DNA of 64,000 nucleotides from Tubulanus polymorphus (Eukaryota; Nemertea; Palaeonemertea; Tubulaniformes; Tubulanidae), in assembly GCF_964204645.1 (NCBI RefSeq), contig NC_134033.1, forward strand, positions 12,836,155 through 12,900,154, in the 5' to 3' direction. Below, in pieces: positions 26,270-59,351 of the stretch. Made by a program: the position numbers and the translations under genes. The notes under the pieces were generated by a model. That model ran no database searches. It was not told where the DNA came from and was given only the letters and a program-made list of their open reading frames with translations. The stretch's first letter is position 1; the number at the start of each line of letters is the position of its first letter.

Positions 26270-26351
26270 GGTAGCGTGGCCGAGCGGTCTAAGGCGCCGG
26301 TTTAAGGCACCGGTCCAGCAATGGGCGTGGGTTCGAATCCCACCGCTGCCA
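26270..26351 (+). tRNA. tRNA-Leu (AAG)
   Basis: 82 nt. The acceptor arms GGTAGCG and CGCTGCC pair fully (one G-T). The D arm has GTGGCCGAGCGGTCTAAGGC. Anticodon stem CCGGT/ACCGG surrounds loop TTAAGGC, giving anticodon AAG. A long class II variable arm and T arm GTGGGTTCGAATCCCAC follow. A T-rich terminator lies just downstream (ATATTTTC). There is no intron. It appears functional. Confidence 0.95.
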
Positions 26352-27687
26352 CATATTTTCTTTTGGGGGTTAGTTAGTGCGGAAATGGTAGGACAGTTAT
26401 AAAATCTGATCATTTTGAATAATGTATTAGATCATACGCCCATGATTAGATAGATGCGTTCCACCACCTAAAAAACAAAAAGCTAAATCTGATCCAAATA
26501 TGGCAAAATCTACTGAATCTTACTCACAAAATTGAGGCTCATAGACTAGAATTAGATTATGAATAATCTCTGAATTGCCGTATGAATGAAAAACTAACAA
26601 CCTTTCGGAAGGAAATTGATCAAGCCCCCGAGTGCCTGAACTGCGCGTGAATCTATGGTTTTAATCTGCCTGGCCTCGGCGCCTTTTTTAGCAACATTTA
26701 TACGAATTTCTATTGTGTTCGGCAGAAAGCGAAAACTTGGACTTATGCGTTCACCTGTTCTACCCAGCCTGGGGGGTAACTTTTCATCAGCGATTTGCTG
26801 AGAGGACGCGGGAACTCCTGAATGGTCTAATAGCCTTATTAATATATATTAAATTAGATAATATAAGATAATATTAGACTACAACCCGAATTGTCGATTC
26901 AAATGTTAATTTAGGCGACCAAAGTCGATTATAAAATGGGTTTAGAATACGAAGCCAGCTTCATTTTGCATGTATGGTCGTAGCATTGAGTTATGTAGTC
27001 TTATCTTTCAAGCATCTATGTAACTCTGGTTCCAAAACGGCATTAGCTCAGTCGAAGCTTAGAATAGAAAGAAAGGGTAACAGTTTTGTAATTCAGGAGC
27101 AGCTCATTTTTGTTTCGTAAATCATAAGCTGGTTTCCGTTGACGCGCGGGTGCAGCTGCGGGTCGGGGGGGGGGGGCGGTGTGGGCGCGGGTGCAGCTAC
27201 GGGTCGGGTGGGCTTGCTTCGTTAATGCGTCATCGTGTTAGGGCAATTTGCATTTGCTTTTGACTATAAGGTAATTGAAAAATGCTTATCATTTGAAAAT
27301 ATTCTTAGAGTATTTTCTAGTCGTCAGGGTACGCGATACAGAACCCCTCGCGGGATGAGTAGGCTACGCAGTTTGTAGTGTTATTCAATCTCTAAAAAGC
27401 GCCTTTCCGTCGTTCTTTGTTTTACGCCACGCCCACAACGACCTGACGGTGATCATCTTCGACAGATAGCAGCGAATGGCAGACGACATTCTCGGCCCGA
27501 TTAGCATAAATGAAACCGTATAGAAAGGCGCACGATGAATGAAGGTGCTAATTGTTTCGGTGACGATTTATTATCGAGAATTAAAACAACGAACAAGCGT
27601 TTGGTCCCCTGATTCAGTTGTTTAAGAGGATTTGTTGAATTTTGATAAATTTTCTTCGCCGCGTAGAACAGCTTTTGTAGTTGAATT
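26352..27687. other. Region upstream of the nuclear receptor; possible promoter and 5'UTR
   Basis: Contains a G13 run and GC-rich GGGTGCAGCTACGGGTCGGG near 27160-27205. The stretch 27420-27687 is probably the receptor promoter/5'UTR if the ATGG exon at 27688 is real. No other gene is seen. Confidence 0.4.
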
Positions 27688-30600
27688 ATGGGTAAGTCTT
27701 CTTATACGAATACAGTGGAACCTCGTTATAACGAACTCGGATACAGCGATTCTTCGGATAAAACAAACATAAAATTTCGTCCCATTTAAGAAAATTTAAT
27801 TAATTTCATACTGGATATAACGAACTATATCGGTTATAACGAACATGTTTTCTGGTCCCGTGAAGTTCGTTGTAACGAGGTTCCACTGTATTAGTGCTCT
27901 TTATGTGTCAAACCTCGATTAGCAATAATTACGGATGTTTTAATACTATCTATTCGAGTCGATTAAATGAAATATGGAATGTTAAATCAACAGAGAAAAA
28001 AGGGCAAAGGCTGGTAGCAGCCACTTTCTCACTTCGGCCATCATATCAAATGATCAGTATTGTTCATAGATTTATGGGTATGAAATACCTACAATTCAAT
28101 AAAGAAATCATTCAAACATGGGTAAGTGAGTAGCTTGCAACAGAAAAAGATGGGAAAGATGGGGCTAGGTGTGGCTTGTTGGTGCAAATGGCTTTTTGGT
28201 GGCATAAGCAATCTACAAATGAAGCCCTATTTTTGCTTTTACTCAATTGCGAAATCTACAGATATGATATGATGATGACAGCAAGCATGATCATAATATT
28301 TACTTTTTGATAGTGTCTACAAGTGTTTCTAACAACCTACGTATTTCTAACTACCCTACCTATTATTAATTTTTTTAAACGTTTTTAAGGATGACTCATA
28401 TAAAGAAAATTCAGGAAAAAAGGTTTCATGGAGAACCCGGGCATCGATCCCGATACCTCTCGCATGCAAAGCGAGCGCTCTACCATTTGAGCTAGTTCCC
28501 CGCCGATGTAGCAGTCCGGTCCGGTCCAACTGAGGTCGGGCTTTCCCACTCACGGCTATTGACCGTGTAGCGCTGCACGAAACCGTGTCCCACACGTCTG
28601 AATAATCGTCCAGAAATTCATTCATATACTTATAGATAATTCTTATTGTATACTATCAATATTTGTCAATGGCTTTTATTTTTTTCCGAATATTCACTCG
28701 TCATTTTCCATTCGACCTGACTAAAAATCCAATCTATAATTTTCGAAAGTGTTTTATAGGTTTTATTTCAAGGAACGACCTATATATCTAAAATTATAAG
28801 GTTCATGGTGTAAACCTTCATTTCAGCTAGTGCCCCTGTCAGGCGTTAATACCACAGGGTAGTCACAAGTTGGTCAGTCCTCACTCGGGGTTGACAAAAA
28901 ATTTTTGGAGAACCCGGGCATCGATCCCGGTACCTCTCGCATGCTAAGCGAGCGCTCTACCATCTGAGCTAGTTCCCCGTCGACAACATGACCGGGCAAG
29001 TCACGCGGCGGTTTGCCATACACGTCTATTTGACCGCACAGGCGGCGCCGTACGAAACCGTGTCCCACACGCCTGAGTTGTCCTCCAAAAGTTCATTTTC
29101 TCTTTAGATTACCATCTATTGTAAACCATTATTATAAGCCAATGCTTTTCCAAATATTCGCCCATCATTTTCCTATCGACCTGAGTAAAATAATCCAATT
29201 TATAATTAAAAAGCCATTTTCCTCGCTCAAACGCGCGGCAATCTCAATACGCACTAACTGGCGGTAAAACTAAGTAACTTTTGTAAATTAGTTGGGGTTG
29301 CGTAAACGAGGTCTCCTAATATTTGCGTACATGTATATGTGTCTCTTTATGTACTTATCAACGATTTGCCTCGTTGTACAATGCCATCTGCTGTTGAAAT
29401 TTAATGTATGAATGTTCTGTGCAAAACATGTTTTTGTGGAACAATAAAAATGAAATCATCAAATCAAGATGTCTTGGTTCTAGAAATTTGAGACGAACTT
29501 CTCTCTATCGGTGATGTATAAGATAGAGAAAGTGTCGGTTACCTTTTAGATATTTTTTGAAAATTGATTGCAATTTATGTTAATGAAAAATGAATCTTTA
29601 AACTTCGGTAACACATTTTCTGAGACGTCTATATACAACTCATATTTGTGAATTCCCTCTTTGTGACTCCATCTTTGACTTCCCTCAGTTTGGCTCCTGC
29701 AATATTGATAGAATATGTATTACATAATGTACTTTGAAATCTAAAATTTTAACTCTTACAAAGTACAGACGCCTTTTTGGTGGATTTTTTCCTTTCAATG
29801 TTCTCTCTTGGTTTCGATTTTGTTTTTTGATTGTAGATCGTGTCACGATGATAGATAAAAAGCTAAATGTTAACACCGCGGCAGCATTATTCAGAATGGG
29901 TTCACTGAAGCGGCTCTAGAAATATTGAGTCGAAAATATTGAAAACAAAAAAGAATCAGAAAAGCTGTGCAAGCAAAGTCTTATCACAGCGCGAGCGATA
30001 ATCCTGTGTCGCAGCGATTTACAAAGAAAGCAAATATACGCTCGAAAACGTTGTTGTCGCCAAGATTTTCGACCTCTGCTAATCGATTTTATGGCCCATA
30101 ACTCGGCGCGTCAAATCCGTCTTTTCGTTCCGGTTTATTGGTCATTCAATCTAAAAAACCTGAACGACGCATTAAGCATTTGACTGCACCTGGCCAGCTG
30201 TACCGAGTCTTAATCACTGGCTTCACCGCGTTTCGCATATTGCGCTTTAATGTCGTATGTTTGTCAAGGGTTTTGCAATTACCGACGGAGGCAGGTGCGC
30301 GGTAATGAGCCGGCTTAGAAGTCTTGTGACGGGGAATTGGCAGCCGAAGAAATCGCGTCGAGAGCTGTGATGCCGTGTATGCACAGTAGAGCTCCGTGTC
30401 GGCTGCGGCGTATCGACCGGTCGTGTTTGTCTCGGTCGGTCGTGTTTGTCGTCGAGTGTAGCGCGCTCTCGTTATAATCCCCTCCACACTCGCAGGCAGA
30501 TTAAAGAATAAAACGCGCGGAGATAAAGATCGCCGAATCGATTTGTAAATGCTTCAAAATGAAAAGACTATCTAGATATAAGATCTAGATATAAGGATTC

Positions 30601-34436: not shown

Positions 34437-35626
34437 GTGATGACGATCCACCAGGCGTCGCTTTTTAATCAACTTTCAACTGGGTTGTTAGGATTCCACT
34501 ATCCGGATTGTCATCGTAAGGAGCCACCCCATTAAGTCGTCACCGGAACTCATTGTTCTTATCAAAAGCAAAGAACATTTATATTCAATTATAATTGAAA
34601 ATTGAAGAAGAAACTGAAATGCAGAAGACCAACCAGCTACTAGCGAACCTGGTGGATTCTCACTTGCCATAAGGATTATGGCAATCATGGGGTGATTGCC
34701 GGCAACCTATACTTAAACTATTCTAGTCAATGGTCCTTAGAAAAGAACAACCCGCTAAAACATGAACATTATCCGTCAATTTATTTCAACAAAAAATGTC
34801 TCCAATTGTAAGTACGTATGTCAGCAGTAAAATCAAAATAAATTATAATTGTATATAATGAAAATATAGAAGAAAATATCCCTGCGTTGAATGAAACATT
34901 GTGTATGTTTAGTTGTTAATCTACGCGGCCTTGTGTTGTCAGGTTTAATTAAATATCTCGTTCAGCTTCTTCGACGGACGCCATCACTTTACCGGCCAGT
35001 CCTAACATCGTTTCACCTACAAATACAGGAGGACAGCATCGAATTAGAATCCCTACCTGTGAATTGCACCGGAGAGACCAATTTGACGGCAGTTCAGAGA
35101 ACCTGAGGCGAATTTATCGAAACGCACCCGACCGAATTCCGGGTACGTTGCTTGACGGGTATATAGGGTACTCAATAACGAGTATCCTTTGTGGATAAAT
35201 GAGTTATGTTGGTTTTTGTTGCGATGAATATAGCGGTAGTGTATATGAGTGGCTGCCATTTTTTCTCACTTAGGCGTACTCAGGGTAACCATGCTCTTGA
35301 GTATGGTAAGGCAAGTCCATCATCCAAAATTGACTTTCTGTATATATGTATATATTGTTTTCTTTTTCTACCGTTTCGGTGTTCATTGACGATCATGTCA
35401 TTTGATTATGGTGAATAAACTAACTGAGATGACTATTAGAATATCGTCGAAACGTCGAATAAACTACACTTGCTCTAGGAAACATTTTCGGACTTTATTT
35501 TTCGTTATTATTGTGGGATAAAGTGTCTTAAAAGTTGAATACACCATTGGATAATGTGCCGAGTATCATCACTTGAAACATGATTCCATCATTATCGGTA
35601 CTACACAGTTGGGCTAACCAGATTAG
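34437..35626. other. Intergenic region between convergent genes
   Basis: AATAAA at 34838-34843 is a candidate poly(A) signal for the receptor. A motif GATGACTATTAGAATATCGTCGAAACG at 35428-35454 (given here as two parts: GATGACTATTAG and TCGTCGAAACG) resembles Penelope-like element ends. No gene. Confidence 0.5.
35494..35499 (-). promoter_or_regulatory. Candidate poly(A) signal (AATAAA) for the GPRPD precursor
   Basis: TTTATT on plus equals AATAAA on minus, about 130 nt after the proposed stop codon. It fits the expected distance for a short 3'UTR. Confidence 0.5.
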
Positions 35627-37781
35627 TTAACGTTTCGATAAAGTCGCCTCTAAAATCCCAGACAGGCAGATATTCGAAAAATCAATCACAGAAATAATAT
35701 ATACTTACGTAACAATTCTTTCAGAGCCGTTCCGATATCGGTTAGCGCATCTTTACCGTCGCCGAGTAAGTCGGTAATGTTAGCGTCTTTCAGGGCGTCG
35801 ATTTTCTCCTGCAGCGCTTGTTTCAGCTCGTCGAGATTTCCGGCGAAGTTTTCGTCGATGATGTTGGCGATCGATTTACCGATATCGCCGATACTTTCTA
35901 ATTTCTGTCGAGAGAAATAACACATAGATTACGTATAGACTTTGTATATGAATTCACGGCTTTGCTCAGTCAATGACGTCACACTCGAGGTATATGTATA
36001 AACATGTATTCATACCTCCTGAAGATCGTCGATATGTGGCTTCAGAAAATCAGTGATTGAAGAAAAGTCAATTTTTGGCTGTGGCGCTGGGCCATCAGGT
36101 CGGGGTCCTCGCTTTACAAGGTCAGGTCGGGGTCCTCGCTTTACAAGGTCAGGTCGGGGTCCTCGCTTTACAAGGTCAGGTCGGGGTCCTCGCTTTACAA
36201 GGTCAGGTCGGGGTCCTCGCTTTACAAGGTCAGGTCGGGGTCCTCGCTTTACAAGGTCAGGTCGGGGTCCTCGCTTTACAAGGTCAGGTCGGGGTCCTCG
36301 CTTTACAGGGTCAGGTCGGGGTCCTCGCTTTACAAGGTCAGGTCGGGGACCTCGTTTCGTAATGAACGATTCAAAATCGCTTTTAACATTTTCGCCGATC
36401 GATCGAAGAGAGCGCTTATGCGTGTCTGAAAACAAAATCGAATAACAAATTATCTCAAAATAATGTCTTTACCACTTGCTTTCTACGGGAATGAAATATC
36501 ATGAATTCAAAAATATCTTACCCAGTATCGAGTCAATTTGTTCTTTGATTTCGTTCATTTTCTCTTGCAATTTGGCTTTGAAGTCGATTTGTCCGATGTT
36601 TTTGAAGACCTCTTTCAACTTGTCGACGGCCAGATCGAAAGCGGCGGCGGCTTTTTTACTGTTCGCCACGATCGAATCGCGTAGGTTCTTGTAAACGTCC
36701 ATGCCGTGTAGGGCGATGCTGGACGCGACGTCCCGTCTCCGCCGACCGAATAACATGCCTATGGTATTCTTCATGTTGCCTAAAGGATTCGAACTGTTTT
36801 ATAAAAGTCTACTGGGGTACGTGAAAATTTCAGGGATGCGTTAGCTTTAGGGAGGGCTTTCGTTTTATCAACCGCAGTGGATGCGTCTAAAATTCTTTTA
36901 CTGAAATGCGCTGTAATACTTTGATTTTATGCATTTGTTGCACCAGATTTTCTAGGTCTAATCCGTGTGCATTCGGCATTCCCCGCTTAGGGTTTTTAAA
37001 TATATCGAGGCAGAAACGTAAACAACTCGACCGTTGAATACGAATTTCTCGAAACTGTTCGTCACAAACTAAAAATATAACGATATTTTCGGCAAATTCG
37101 TTCGTTGAGCTGTAACTTTAATATGTTTTTAAAACCGAACTGCCGACTTTAAACAGAATTGTATGAATTTCCCATTTTATAATTGTCTACAACCTTGGAA
37201 TGTGATTTATAGTAATATATATATTTAGATCATTAGCATCAATTTGCGAGGAAGGAATTGGTTTTGAAGAAAGACGCTTCGCTTGTAGAAGGTTTGACGA
37301 TTGAATTTGTTTTCGCAGTTTGCCTAGGGAATGAATGAGGTATTTTTTTTCAGAATATCACAGGCCCTAAAGATCGATAAATCCATAACGGAAAACTATT
37401 TTCAAGGATGGAGTTTGTTTTAAGTTGTAATTCAGGACCCAGTTCTACAGTTGTAAGTTAGAGTAAATTCTGAGTTAAAGTTAGTTCAATTTCAATGAGT
37501 TTACTCTGCTCTGAGTCAAATCTTAACTCAGAACTGTGGAACTGGATCCTGTTATTATATCATACAATTTTCGATTATTATGAAAACGTTTTACCGATGT
37601 ATATTTTACCTTTCAACAGATCGAGGCTTTCGTTGGTGATCTTACTCAAAGTTTCCTTTCCGACGCCTTTAAATCCATTGGTCAATTTGTCGATATTCTT
37701 CTCGAAGAAGCTGTTGAAGTTAAAGCCGTGAACTGCTCCTACGAGGAGTACCACGACGCACAGCGCGGTTAACAATTTCAT
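35627..37781 (-). CDS. Secreted precursor with ten GPRPD units separated by Lys-Arg; novel peptide-precursor candidate
   Basis: No known family recognised. Exons: 37781-37610, 36779-36522, 36425-36016, 35904-35709, 35649-35627; total 1059 nt (352 aa), phases consistent. Start: ATG directly after an acceptor, followed by a clear signal peptide (MKLLTALCVVVLLVGAVHG). Then an amphipathic helical region; an RRRR site; a longer helical, Ala/Lys-rich region (DLAVDKLKEVFKNIG); HKR; then an array with period nine, GPRPDLVKR, of which nine units end in KR (one has DPV) and a tenth reads GPRPDGPAPQPK. A C-terminal helical segment (LKQALQEKIDALKD) follows. Dibasic cleavage would release about nine GPRPDLV heptapeptides (inference). 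If the last donor (GTAAGT at 35708) is not used, the protein ends a few residues later at 35686. Alternative: a structural or amphipathic secreted protein with a minisatellite expansion. Confidence 0.8.
36105..36360. repeat. 27-bp tandem repeat inside an exon
   Basis: About ten in-frame copies of GGTCAGGTCGGGGTCCTCGC plus TTTACAA (plus strand). Unit length is a multiple of three, so copy changes preserve the frame. Copies are almost identical; the first in gene order uses some synonymous codons (GGGGACCTCGTTTCG). Confidence 0.95.
37434..37551. repeat. Palindromic interspersed repeat in an intron
   Basis: GGACCCAGTTCTACAGTTGT and CAGAACTGTGGAACTGGATC form an imperfect hairpin close to the 37610 splice donor of the GPRPD precursor. 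Same family as 3867-3976. Confidence 0.7.
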
Positions 37782-46000: not shown

Positions 46001-48172
46001 ATTTCCGTTTCCTTCAGCAGTACCGCCGCCACCGCGAGCAGCCAAAACGGCAGCGCTATATCAGTAGCTCACTCCACGCTCGGCAATGCGCCAAGTTAAA
46101 AGCATTAAGAAGAGAAGTAGACGCGATCGTTGACTTCGGTGATATCTAAATAATCTTCGCCGCCTCTACACAAAGTAGATTGTTTCTTCCCTAACTGACA
46201 GGTTGTATCATACAAACATCTATATGAAGGTACCGACGTCTGTGAAATTTTTAGTTTCAATTTAACGGAAATATCTGAAGACACGAAGGCCATCTTCTTT
46301 TAGATGTGATAGCAGACTTTTAACTCGAGATAGAGAGCGAGGACAGAATAAGGGTAAAGCCCAACGGGATCCATTGCATAGTTGAGAAACTTAGAGGAGT
46401 GGAAATATTAGATCCAGCGATTTTTGATTTATGACGTAAAAATGTGGACCAGCTTCCTTTCGGCAATTTCGATCGGGAATCTTGGTTTGATAAAATTGTC
46501 CTTGAAATGAGAAGAATCTAACAAAATCCCACGCTAATAATAAAAAAAGAGTTTGAAATGTTTCCTCGTTTATTCGACGTATATCCAGGATTCTCAGGTT
46601 AAAGTCTGCATTCCTGGTGGAGATGACCATTAGGTTAAAGTCAGTATTCCTGAAGGTATGACCACTAGGTTAAAGTCAGCATTCCTGGTGGGGATGACCA
46701 CTAGGTTAAAGTCAGCATTCCTGGTGGGGATGACCACTAGGTTAAAGTCAGTATTCCTCAAGGGATGACCATTATAGGTTTAAGTCAGTATTCCTCAAGG
46801 GATGACCATTATAGGTTTAAGTCAGTATTCCTGAAGGGTATGACCACTAGGTTAAAGTCAGCATTCCTGGTGGGGATGACCACTAGGTTAAAGTCAGCAT
46901 TCCTCAAGGGCATGACCACTAGGTTAAAGTCAGCATTCCTGGTGGGGATGACCACTAGGTTAAAGTCAGCATTCCTGGTGGAGATGACCACTAGGTTAAA
47001 GTCAGCATTCCTCAAGGGCATGACCACTAGGTTAAAGTCAGCATTCCTGGTGGGGATGACCACTAGGTTAAAGTCAGCATTCCTGGTGGGGATGACCACT
47101 AGGTTAAAGTCAGTATTCCTGAAGGGCATGACCACTAGGTTAAAGTCAGCATTCCTGGTGGGGATGACCACTAGGTTAAAGTCAGTATTCCTGGTGGGGA
47201 TGACCACTAGGTTAAAGTCAGTATTCCTGGTGGGGATGACCACTAGGTTAAAGTCAGCATTCCTGGTGGGGATGACCACTAGGTTAAAGTCAGTATTCCT
47301 GAAGGGCATGACCACTAGGTTTAAGTCAGCATTCCTGGTGGGGATGACCACTAGGTTAAAGTCAGCATTCCTGGTGGGGATGACCACTAGGTTAAAGTCA
47401 GTATTCCTCAAGGGATGACCATTATAGGTTTAAGTCAGTATTCCTGGGGATGACTAAGACATAGTCGAAGCGTTGAATAGATAGTTAGTCCGAAGAAACA
47501 TTTCGGATATTTTCTTTACACTGAGTGCAGAATCTTATGTTATCTTTCAACGCGTACATTATTTCGTCAGTGATTAAGGTACGTTTATCCTATTACGTAT
47601 CCACAATTTAATCGTTACCGTAAAAAATATATTCGTTAAAACTTTTACGTTAATGGTTCAGTTGGTTTGTTATGGTTTTTATTCGCTGCACCTGGTCACC
47701 GATACATCCAATTAAATTTTAATTGCTTGACCCGAGCCGATAGACAGATACCGATGAGGATAATTGGTCGTCGAAAAGTCGTCATAACAGGTTGTCAAGT
47801 CGTCGCACACAGCTATCGTTTGGTCAGTTGCCGAGAAAGACAGCTCAGGAGGGCGGACAGACAGATACACGCGGCCCAGCGGACTCATATCATCTTTAGT
47901 CACAGACTCGCACTCAGGTAAGCCGATTGTTTCAACAAACCGAAAGATTTTTGATTTCTCGCGAAGCTAAGGATAATTTTGAATCGGTCGCTATTGTTTT
48001 AATGGTATTCATGGGTAATTTCTTTAAAGAATGAAATAATTTCTAAAATACGGGCATCGTTATTGTGTAATGAAAAAGCATTCAATGTTTAACATTGACT
48101 ATCATTTTACATTCTTGTTTCACGTTTCATAATGTATACACTAGACTTTAAATTTTAGTTTCGTTTTTTTAG
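46001..48172. promoter_or_regulatory. Divergent intergenic region with 5'UTR exon and minisatellite
   Basis: Separates the hemopexin gene (minus) from the Cys/Lys-rich secreted gene (plus). A noncoding exon of the plus gene ends at 47917 (CACTCAG|GTAAGC) and is spliced to the acceptor at 48171-48172. Promoters of both genes presumably flank the 36-bp array (46588-47452). A minus open stretch at 46293-46105 with four cysteines was not recognised. Confidence 0.5.
46588..47452. repeat. 36-bp minisatellite, about 24 copies
   Basis: Unit ATGACCACTAGGTTAAAGTC plus AGCATTCCTGGTGGGG, with variants (TCAAGGGC, GAAGGGC, TATTCC). Because 36 is divisible by three and has no stop, both strands keep a 12-residue periodic frame open (MTTRLKSAFLVG / NADFNLVVIPTR). 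No splice or start context supports translation. Confidence 0.95.
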
Positions 48173-56365: not shown

Positions 56366-59351
56366 TCAAATGACCGATTCTTTATTGTCGCCATTACTAC
56401 CGACACTTCCGATGCTATCGCTTCCGCAAATGTGCATTTCGATTTCGGACAGTCGTTGCTCGACCTCCCATTGCTGTTGATTCAGTTTAATGCTCATCGT
56501 GGCGTTCTCCGTCTCCAGGTGCACCAGACGTTCGCGCAGACGCTGTATCTCCTGCAGTAGAATCTCGCTCGACGGATCCCTCGATAACGATTGGCTGCTG
56601 GAAGTCAAGTGTGAACTGTACGGTATGCTCAGCGTGTTTAACGGTTGGTTCGGACTGAGACTGACGTGCGCGTGGCCCGGCGAGTATAAGTTCGAAACGC
56701 TCAGCGGCGAATAACTCGGCGATAAGTTTCTAATGGGAAGAGTGTGTTGTGAATGGTGCGATGCGGCAGGTGACAATTTTGGCGATATCAGGCCGGCTCC
56801 GAATGTCTGCAATGGGATATTATCCGTAAGTATGTTTGGCGGCGCCACAATCGACCCAGACGGGCCTTGTATTCCGATATTCGGTACCTGGTGCGACGCG
56901 AGCGGTCTTTGAAACGTTGTCAATTGCATTGGCGATGCTGGCGGGGTCAAGGTTACATGAGGCGATTTCGGAAACGAGGTTTCGGTGCCGTTTGACGTCA
57001 CCGAGGACGTGGTGACGGACTGAGTGATGTGGTCGTGTTGACCGGATTTTGGCGGTAATTCCGAGTCTTCAGCGACGTGGTGATGTATCTCGTTATTGTC
57101 ACTAGTGGTGGATGGATGCGACCCGGATAAATTACCAGCGCTGGCGCTGTGCGAGTGCACGGCTAATCCACCCGTCGAGGCCGTTAAGCCCCGAGCGTAC
57201 GCGAGTGCCATGTTTTCTATCGGGATTTTCCCGGCGGATTCAACTAATCCCGGTGTACTTTTACTCCGACTTAAAGCAGCTGAAAAACATGACAAATACG
57301 ATTTTAATCCGGCGGGTAATTCAACACCAGCAGGTTCGAATCCCTGCATGAGAGGATATTATTATGCGTCCTAAGCGCAGAGAATATACAAATGCTTTAC
57401 GCGGATTAAAAAGTCGCACAATAAAACTTTTATATAGATAGAAATGTGTTAAAATGAACACATCCTCTCAAAAATAATTTCAAAAATTTATCAAAAATGT
57501 TATGAGTTATGGAATGTATTTAATTACAACACGCCAAAATCCACTTTTGAAAACGCCAATATTGATGACGTAGTGTACATCGAATCCCCAATATAACGCA
57601 TACTAGGTGTCAATGTATATAATTCTTAGGGTTTTTACGGCGTCAAAAAATTCTATCGTGAGACTTTTTTTCATGAATCTATATCGTTTTCATGGAGTGT
57701 TTCATTCGACTGATAAAGAAACGGAAATAATCATACTCACCTTTTTCCAGGGGAGCTTTTTTATATTTTTCTAAACGTTTGACGGCGATGGATTCAAGTT
57801 TTACTCGGGCCGCCGGATACTCCTTCAATACGTCCCACATGTCCTTTTTCGATAAACAAAACAGATCGGAATAACCGACCGACCGAACGGATGCCGTTCG
57901 GCGATTTCCGGCCGTGCCCATGTTGAGAATACTTATTTCTCCGAAATAGCTGCCTGGCTTCAGCGTAGCCAATATTGTTCTGCCGTTTTCGGCTACCACC
58001 TGCAGGCGACCTCTATTGACGATGTACATTTCTTTGCCAACCTCCCCTGAAAATAATGAAAAGCAGGCGTTGAAAGAACAAACTAACGTTTATTTTTCAC
58101 CAACGAGGACACCCAGTTATTGTTGTTAGCGGCCATTTCGCAGACGGTTCCATCACGTTATAGAAACAGAACACACAGATTGTGAAACGGGCAACAGGTC
58201 CTTACTTGAAATTCTAAAACTGGTATTGTATCTAAGCCGCGCGGTCATGAAAGCGTTCTTATTCATGAATAACAGTTGTCACCCCAAAATATTTGAACTA
58301 ATTTGTATCCGGTACGAACAGTCGCTACTATGGGACACCGGCAACGCTACAGAGGGAAGAGATGATTCAGTGATAATCCGCCAGGATCGCTAGTGTACTG
58401 GTTACCGCGCTTCAATTTTTTCTTCATTTCCATTCAATTTTTCTCATTAGTAAATCAATTTTCTGTGAAATTTGTAAAATACACCGAGTGGGAAAGGAAG
58501 GGAATCTTATTTCTATCCGATGACTCGTTTGATAATTTTTCGGATTTGGAAGCCTAAAAATCAAGTGTGAATTTCATCAAAAATGAACTGACCCAGTGTT
58601 TGTCGCGCCATCTGGAGGTCAGCCAAAAAACGACTGTAAGATATTCACCGCTTTTCTTCACGTGAACAGCGCATATACGCGTGTATACGTCATTACGCTA
58701 ATTTGGTAATGCTACACCGCTTTTCTTCACGTGAACAGCGCATATACGCGTGTATACGTCATTACGCTAATTTGGTAATGCTAAAGATTTGGAGCGAATT
58801 CCTCGTGAATTCGAACACAAGCATTTTTCAGATTCCTCGAGGACTCCGAAGTATTTTTCCTATTCAATTTGCCGTCAAAAATATTTCGAACATTTCCGCG
58901 AATTCCTTCGAGGAATCTCTGAATAACTAAGCGAACAACGAAAATTCCCTTGACAATTGAAAAAAAAACTAGAGAAAAAAGATGCATCTGATGAATAAAT
59001 AAAGGAATTCTGATGGACACGTCAAGCACGCGCACGCGCGTCGGAGGTATTCATTACCTTTTCTGCATATGAAATCGCCAGGCGAGAACAGGACGGGACG
59101 TAAACGCAATACGAGCTCGCATAGGAATCCTGGATCCGTATTCTGGAATATTTCTACTCGTTTCAGTGTGTCTAAGTGTACGTGTATGGCTATCTCAGCT
59201 TTTAGTTTGTCCGGCAACAGGCTGAGAGTTTTCTCTTCGTCCGTCGACTTGTGACTCGTCCACAGGTAGTCGAACCACTTGATGACGCGGTCTTGCAACT
59301 TCAGCGGCACCCGCCGTAACGACATGTAGGTCTTGACACCGTCCAGTTTGG
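56366..59351 (-). CDS. Cyclic-nucleotide-gated channel, CngL-like: C-linker, ligand-binding domain and C terminus
   Basis: CNG channels are tetrameric cation channels opened by cGMP/cAMP. Three exons are present: 59351-59058, 58046-57741, 57279-56366 (all phase 1 joins). Exon 1 encodes [20 protein letters not shown] and [10 protein letters not shown] (C-linker), then [20 protein letters not shown] and [20 protein letters not shown] (start of the cyclic-nucleotide domain). Exon 2 has the binding cassette: [13 protein letters not shown] and the key Arg in NRRTASVRS, then [16 protein letters not shown]. Exon 3 begins [20 protein letters not shown] and has a long Ser/Pro/His-rich tail and a terminal coiled coil ([16 protein letters not shown]). 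The [11 protein letters not shown] stretch and leucine-rich end fit the invertebrate CngL group rather than CNGA rod/cone channels (inference from memory). The transmembrane exons lie upstream, beyond or not found in the window. Confidence 0.93.
58646..58783. repeat. Perfect 69-bp tandem duplication
   Basis: CACCGCTTTTCTTCACGTGA...TTTGGTAATGCTA occurs twice head to tail (58646-58714, 58715-58783) in a CNG intron. Identity suggests a recent event. Contains CACGTG and the palindromic-like TATACGCGTGTATA. Confidence 0.95.

Follow-up and report, generated by a model that had tools for sequence, protein, structure and literature searches.

A tandem GPRPDLV array at a dibasic linker of a helical secretory protein in Tubulanus polymorphus: a candidate multi-copy peptide precursor

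Multi-copy peptide precursors in which short peptides are bounded by dibasic sites include the FMRFamide precursors, yeast alpha-factor and apidaecin, and how such precursors originate usually lies too far back to be resolved. To our knowledge, the exchangeable apolipoprotein families PF01442 and PF07464 have neither internal dibasic sites nor arrays of peptides. Here we describe a gene of Tubulanus polymorphus, located in a 64,000-nucleotide stretch of genomic DNA (the window), whose protein shares features with both kinds of system. The reading that we favour, and hold to be somewhat probable, is that of a helical precursor processed at dibasic sites, the third cleavage linker of which was recently amplified, and from which nine heptapeptides could be released.

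The window gene (35627–37781, minus strand) gives a clean model of five coding exons encoding a predicted 352-aa secretory preproprotein, with GT/AG boundaries at all introns, intron phases of 1, 1, 0 and 1 and a frame that is open through all 352 aa. Exon 1 (37610–37781, on the minus strand as are the other four) contains the start Met, the hydrophobic leader (MKLLTALCVVVLLVGAVHG) and the first helical segment and has a phase 1 donor, and exon 2 (36522–36779, also with a phase 1 donor) contains the end of that segment, site 1 (RRRR, aa 70–73) and a long helical segment. Exon 3 (36016–36425, phase 0 donor) runs from site 2 (HKR, aa 146–148) through a short helical segment to TKR (aa 166–168, directly before the array), the array and then a conserved DF.KPHI segment. 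Exon 4 (35709–35904) encodes C-terminal helical segments (LESIGDIGKS...LLGDGKDALTDI) aligned with the LGD..K...LVGHG..AV of the family, and exon 5 (35627–35649) supplies the remainder of a split Gln codon, six codons (ATLSKR) and the stop. The leader (aa 1–18, Eisenberg mean 0.63), assigned from its composition and from its alignment with the leaders of relatives, holds the sole Cys of the protein (aa 8), and an AATAAA is found at 35499 on the same minus strand as the gene. The coordinates, five exons, leader, RRRR, HKR, ten GPRPD units and flanking helices described in the earlier note are thus all present, on the minus strand.

The ATG of the window gene is immediately preceded by a splice acceptor (TTTCAG), and a splice acceptor likewise adjoins the ATG of the paralogous genes C6a and C10; a further upstream exon is therefore likely. 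For the last exon there is a choice of two acceptors separated by two bases: TTTTAG, which leads to LLQATLSKR and an end at 35627, and TTTTAGAG (35647), which leads to a 360-aa version ending DFIETLTNLVSPTV. We provisionally adopted the TTTTAG acceptor, and hence the 352-aa model, because QATL then aligns with the NETF of the family without a gap and because TAG is a better splice acceptor than GAG, though most searches were run with the 360-aa version as query. The window gene lacks approximately 28 aa of C-terminus present in C6a and C10, and the usual last exon of the family found no match elsewhere in the window (tblastn with 21 relatives, E ≤ 1). Other features of the window include genes for tRNA-Leu(AAG) (26270–26352), tRNA-Ala(TGC) (28429–28501) and tRNA-Ala(AGC) (28906–28978), and an ORF at 57679–58029 with a cyclic-nucleotide-binding domain (PF00027, E 7.9e-14). 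The last lies within a region (56366–59325, minus strand) that looks, by eye, like a cyclic-nucleotide-gated channel gene; the ORF at 56366–57349 matched BicD only, weakly, and that at 58969–59325 matched no family.

The array (36095–36354, minus strand) was delimited by Tandem Repeats Finder as 9.6 copies of a 27-bp period with 98% matches and is located at the site 3 linker of the family. Of its nine complete units, all in frame and KR-bounded, eight read GPRPDLVKR and one reads GPRPDPVKR; a tenth, partial unit (GPRPD) then passes into GPAPQPK. The nine complete units depart from their consensus by two base changes in total, one silent and one L-to-P, and this near-identity, silent sites included, shows the youth of the array rather than selection. 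It is not unusual for a minisatellite in the window to have an open frame, as one of 36 bp at 46596–47447 (23.6 copies) has one frame open on each strand, and the openness of the array alone proves little; a chance origin of the coding context is disfavoured because the sequences on either side of the array match a single protein family and share its intron phases. The array was also compared with a 27-bp array at C7:792848 (L015, 3763–4009) as a possible genomic source, a candidate that was rejected: the C7 array has stops in the matching frame, and its unit agrees with the window unit at 15 of 27 ungapped positions, no better than chance (5.9% of shuffles were as good). By eye, KRGPRPDLVKR resembles the C6a linker QRGKGDLGRK, KRAKGELGKK of the relative P0003 and the RRDLGQK of the family. 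GPRPDLV would carry no net charge after trimming of KR, and on this feature of the sequence a reading as an antimicrobial peptide of the apidaecin type was set aside. It has no C-terminal Gly for amidation and would accordingly be a free acid. The calculated MH+ is 753.4253 for GPRPDLV (2+ 377.2163), 737.3940 for GPRPDPV and 1037.6214 for an uncut GPRPDLVKR unit. The array site, LVKR, lacks a basic P4 residue and hence does not have the furin form R-x-K/R-R.

Sequence comparison indicates that the window gene is one of at least four family members in T. polymorphus. An assembly search with the window protein minus its array returned loci on C6 near 3.259 Mb (C6a, best E 8.8e-9, in a match of exon 2 that extends into the C6a intron) and, at E 1.3e-7, on C10 near 2.302 Mb. 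A further locus, C6b (near C6:8.57 Mb), emerged when C6a was the query, and a search with the relative P0013 recovered these three paralogous loci and nothing further at E ≤ 1 among the best-scoring candidates. The C10 protein read from the contig is contained in P0001 (LOC141912142), an uncharacterized protein of T. polymorphus with its gene on C10, which matches exon 2 of the window gene at E 3.8e-10. The exon plan and phases (1, 1, 0, 1) of C6a and C10 are identical to those of the window gene. All three paralogues share with the window protein the leader, site 1, helical segments, DF(F/L)KPHI (DFFNPHI in C6b) and the C-terminal LVGHG..AV region, but their site 3 linkers are shorter and a GPRPD array is present in none of them (C6b being represented by its translated frames). 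C6b differs further in a KR-ended N-terminal duplication of its own: at L029 2218–3420 (C6 near 8.566 Mb), a helix module of the N-terminus that ends in KR has been duplicated at the level of exons. Of all the genes seen, only the window gene has the array, at its linker 3.

A protein database search with C6a yielded 21 proteins at E ≤ 1, namely LOC141912142 and 20 unnamed proteins (one with an odd bacterial name), 13 of which come from contigs of 925–1286 bases while the other 7 have no contig listed; the 20 are probably transcripts of marine animals. Many of the 21 are near-copies of one another, and counts among them do not represent independent events. GPRP occurs in none of the 21 sequences. 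With the window protein itself as query, Pfam, PDB and the protein database gave no usable homologue, none of the best 7992 word-sharing candidates in the protein database reaching E 1, and a search with an alignment of 16 sequences (A3) returned P0020 and P0021 only among the best 7991 word-sharing candidates. No orthologue of the window gene was found in three protein database searches, two of which were crowded by array words. In hhalign, the profile of the 21 relatives (A2) matched the window protein at E 1e-13 before the array and 9.3e-12 after it. Since both flanks match the family profile, the helical parts on either side of the array belong to the family, and the array is an insert.

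Each of the 21 relatives gives a weak match (E ≤ 0.001) to PF01442, the profile of apolipoprotein A1/A4/E, and 6 of the 21 match PF07464. The PF01442 scores of the window protein (26.1 bits), C6a (39.6 bits) and P0001 (23.4 bits) are all below the curated cut-off of 90 bits, and we do not class the window protein as a PF01442 member because its score is far under that cut-off. Outside the leader and array, 13 of 27 18-mers have a hydrophobic moment of at least 0.40, a count made with no shuffled control, and an AlphaFold2 model of P0001 based on 21 sequences is all-helical and weak, with a mean pLDDT of only 50.1. By analogy with apolipoproteins, binding to lipid or membranes is a possible role of the helical parts.

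Dibasic residues recur at fixed positions in the family. At site 1, after the first helical segment, [KR]R is found in each of the 19 relatives whose sequence extends that far; 14 of 20 relatives have it at site 2, and 17 of 21 at site 3, which precedes the DFFKPHI segment. The window protein carries it at all three sites, with the array occupying site 3. [KR]R is missing from site 3 of P0001, P0002, P0005 and P0008, and cleavage there would therefore not be obligatory. Dibasic enrichment outside the array of the window protein is borderline and varies with the counting scheme, with 4 sites against 1.25 in shuffles (0.018) when RRRR is counted twice, 4 against 1.35 (0.021) when the terminal KR of the 352-aa model is included, and 3 against 1.16 (0.088) when each run counts as a single site and the last exon is omitted. 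Ten relatives were tested in the same respect: P0004, P0006, P0015, P0019 and P0020 are enriched (0.0002–0.037), and P0001, P0002, P0010, P0016 and P0021 miss 0.05. The case for processing is thus based on the recurrence of dibasic sites at fixed places and not on the enrichment figures. Ungapped self-comparison of the 21 relatives, C6a and the first exons of C6b revealed internal repeats in 3 of these 23 sequences, P0019 (three copies at a 52-aa spacing), P0020 (two copies, 43 aa) and C6b (two copies, 58 aa), and in each the modules end in a dibasic site. Multiplication of cleavable KR-ended modules thus appears to recur in the family, and the window array would fit this pattern on a smaller scale. 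Because the family keeps its dibasic sites and duplicates KR-ended modules, the predicted processing is likelier than it would be from the array alone.

In the processing scheme that we propose, the protein would enter the secretory pathway, a proprotein convertase would cut at RRRR, HKR, TKR and the KR of each array unit, and a carboxypeptidase would trim the KR. Each precursor would then yield helical segments, an 18-aa peptide, eight GPRPDLV and one GPRPDPV (all free acids) and a C-terminal helical part. The array itself probably arose by recent slippage or unequal exchange involving 27 bp of the ancestral linker. We regard release of the heptapeptide as slightly more likely than not; a function for the heptapeptide itself is considerably more doubtful, as it might be a signal or merely a cleavable spacer. 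The fuller proposal, that a new multi-copy peptide is arising from an amplified linker of an apolipoprotein-like polyprotein and that GPRPDLV has its own extracellular function in Tubulanus (signal, pheromone or defence), is put forward as a tentative and, on balance, unlikely one.

The main rival to this reading, and a serious one which we consider possible if not probable, is that the array is a neutral coding minisatellite, lengthening a floppy basic linker in a secreted lipid-binding helical protein that is unprocessed or cut only once, with no bioactive heptapeptide. The presence of the array in one gene only, with none in the three paralogues and the 20 other relatives seen, speaks for this rival, as do the near-identity of its units at the DNA level, the weak match of all 21 relatives to the Pfam apolipoprotein profile, the open-frame minisatellites elsewhere in the window and the borderline dibasic enrichment outside the array. 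Against it stand the position of the array at a dibasic site of the family, with a dibasic site repeated in each unit, and the duplication of KR-ended modules by other members. A random 9-aa segment of the helical part of the window protein would include [KR]R just ~11% of the time (3–11% in six relatives).

A stronger form of the preferred reading, overlapping with it, takes GPRPDLV to be a signal with a dedicated receptor, encoded in a multi-copy neuropeptide or hormone precursor of the classic type. The leader and the near-identical copies flanked by dibasic sites are consistent with this, but the amidation Gly is absent, the peptide is missing from the relatives seen and the helical framework constitutes a separate, older family, and we consider such a precursor improbable. 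The main text of a study of nemertean neuropeptides (PMC8557429) contains no word starting 'GPRP'. The comparison with relatives weakens the neuropeptide claim, as it points to an expansion that is confined to one gene and apparently recent, whereas the helical family around it is older; the earlier note had taken the helices for spacer peptides of a multi-copy precursor, an assignment that is reversed here, the helices being the conserved part and the array a linker addition in one gene. Every released peptide would start with GPRP after cleavage at KR, and an N-terminal GPRP defines a synthetic peptide that blocks fibrin polymerisation; invertebrates possess fibrinogen-related lectins, and the released peptides might conceivably act on fibrinogen-like domains. 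The match is one of four residues and we know of no vertebrate blood diet in Tubulanus, and we consider this reading very improbable.

The more general proposal of the earlier note, that a secretory preproprotein contains dibasic sites and could give rise to nine heptapeptides lacking amidation, is supported by the gene model and the linkers of the family, and the peptide-precursor idea is strengthened by the dibasic linkers and module duplications of other members. Absence of the array alongside retained helices, a pattern that the note had taken to count against a precursor, is seen in the three paralogues and the 20 other relatives, the comparison covering paralogues and distant relatives. 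The presumed ancestral state, a short dibasic linker, and the derived state, a nine-fold array, thus stand side by side in one genome, and if the peptides are released, one could trace here how a linker gave rise to a multi-copy peptide precursor. In the main texts of the open-access library searched, no paper was found for GPRPD, GPRPDLV, PRPDLVKR, FFKPHI or LOC141912142; the window gene links a peptide array with a helical secretory family that had no paper there under sequence motif or gene name. A table in PMC9415933 lists an RNA-seq data set from the anterior end of T. polymorphus (SRR1611583).

Apart from its paralogues, the window protein can be compared with two known kinds of system. 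Exchangeable apolipoproteins (PF01442, PF07464) resemble the window family in being secreted and helical and through the weak profile match, but are not known to carry internal dibasic sites or peptide arrays. Like the window protein, the multi-copy dibasic precursors (FMRFamide, yeast alpha-factor, apidaecin) have a leader and numerous short, nearly identical units that end in Lys-Arg. The window protein differs from these precursors in belonging to a helical family in which no other member seen has the array and in that its peptide would be a free acid, one that after trimming would be without net charge, unlike antimicrobial peptides of the apidaecin type.
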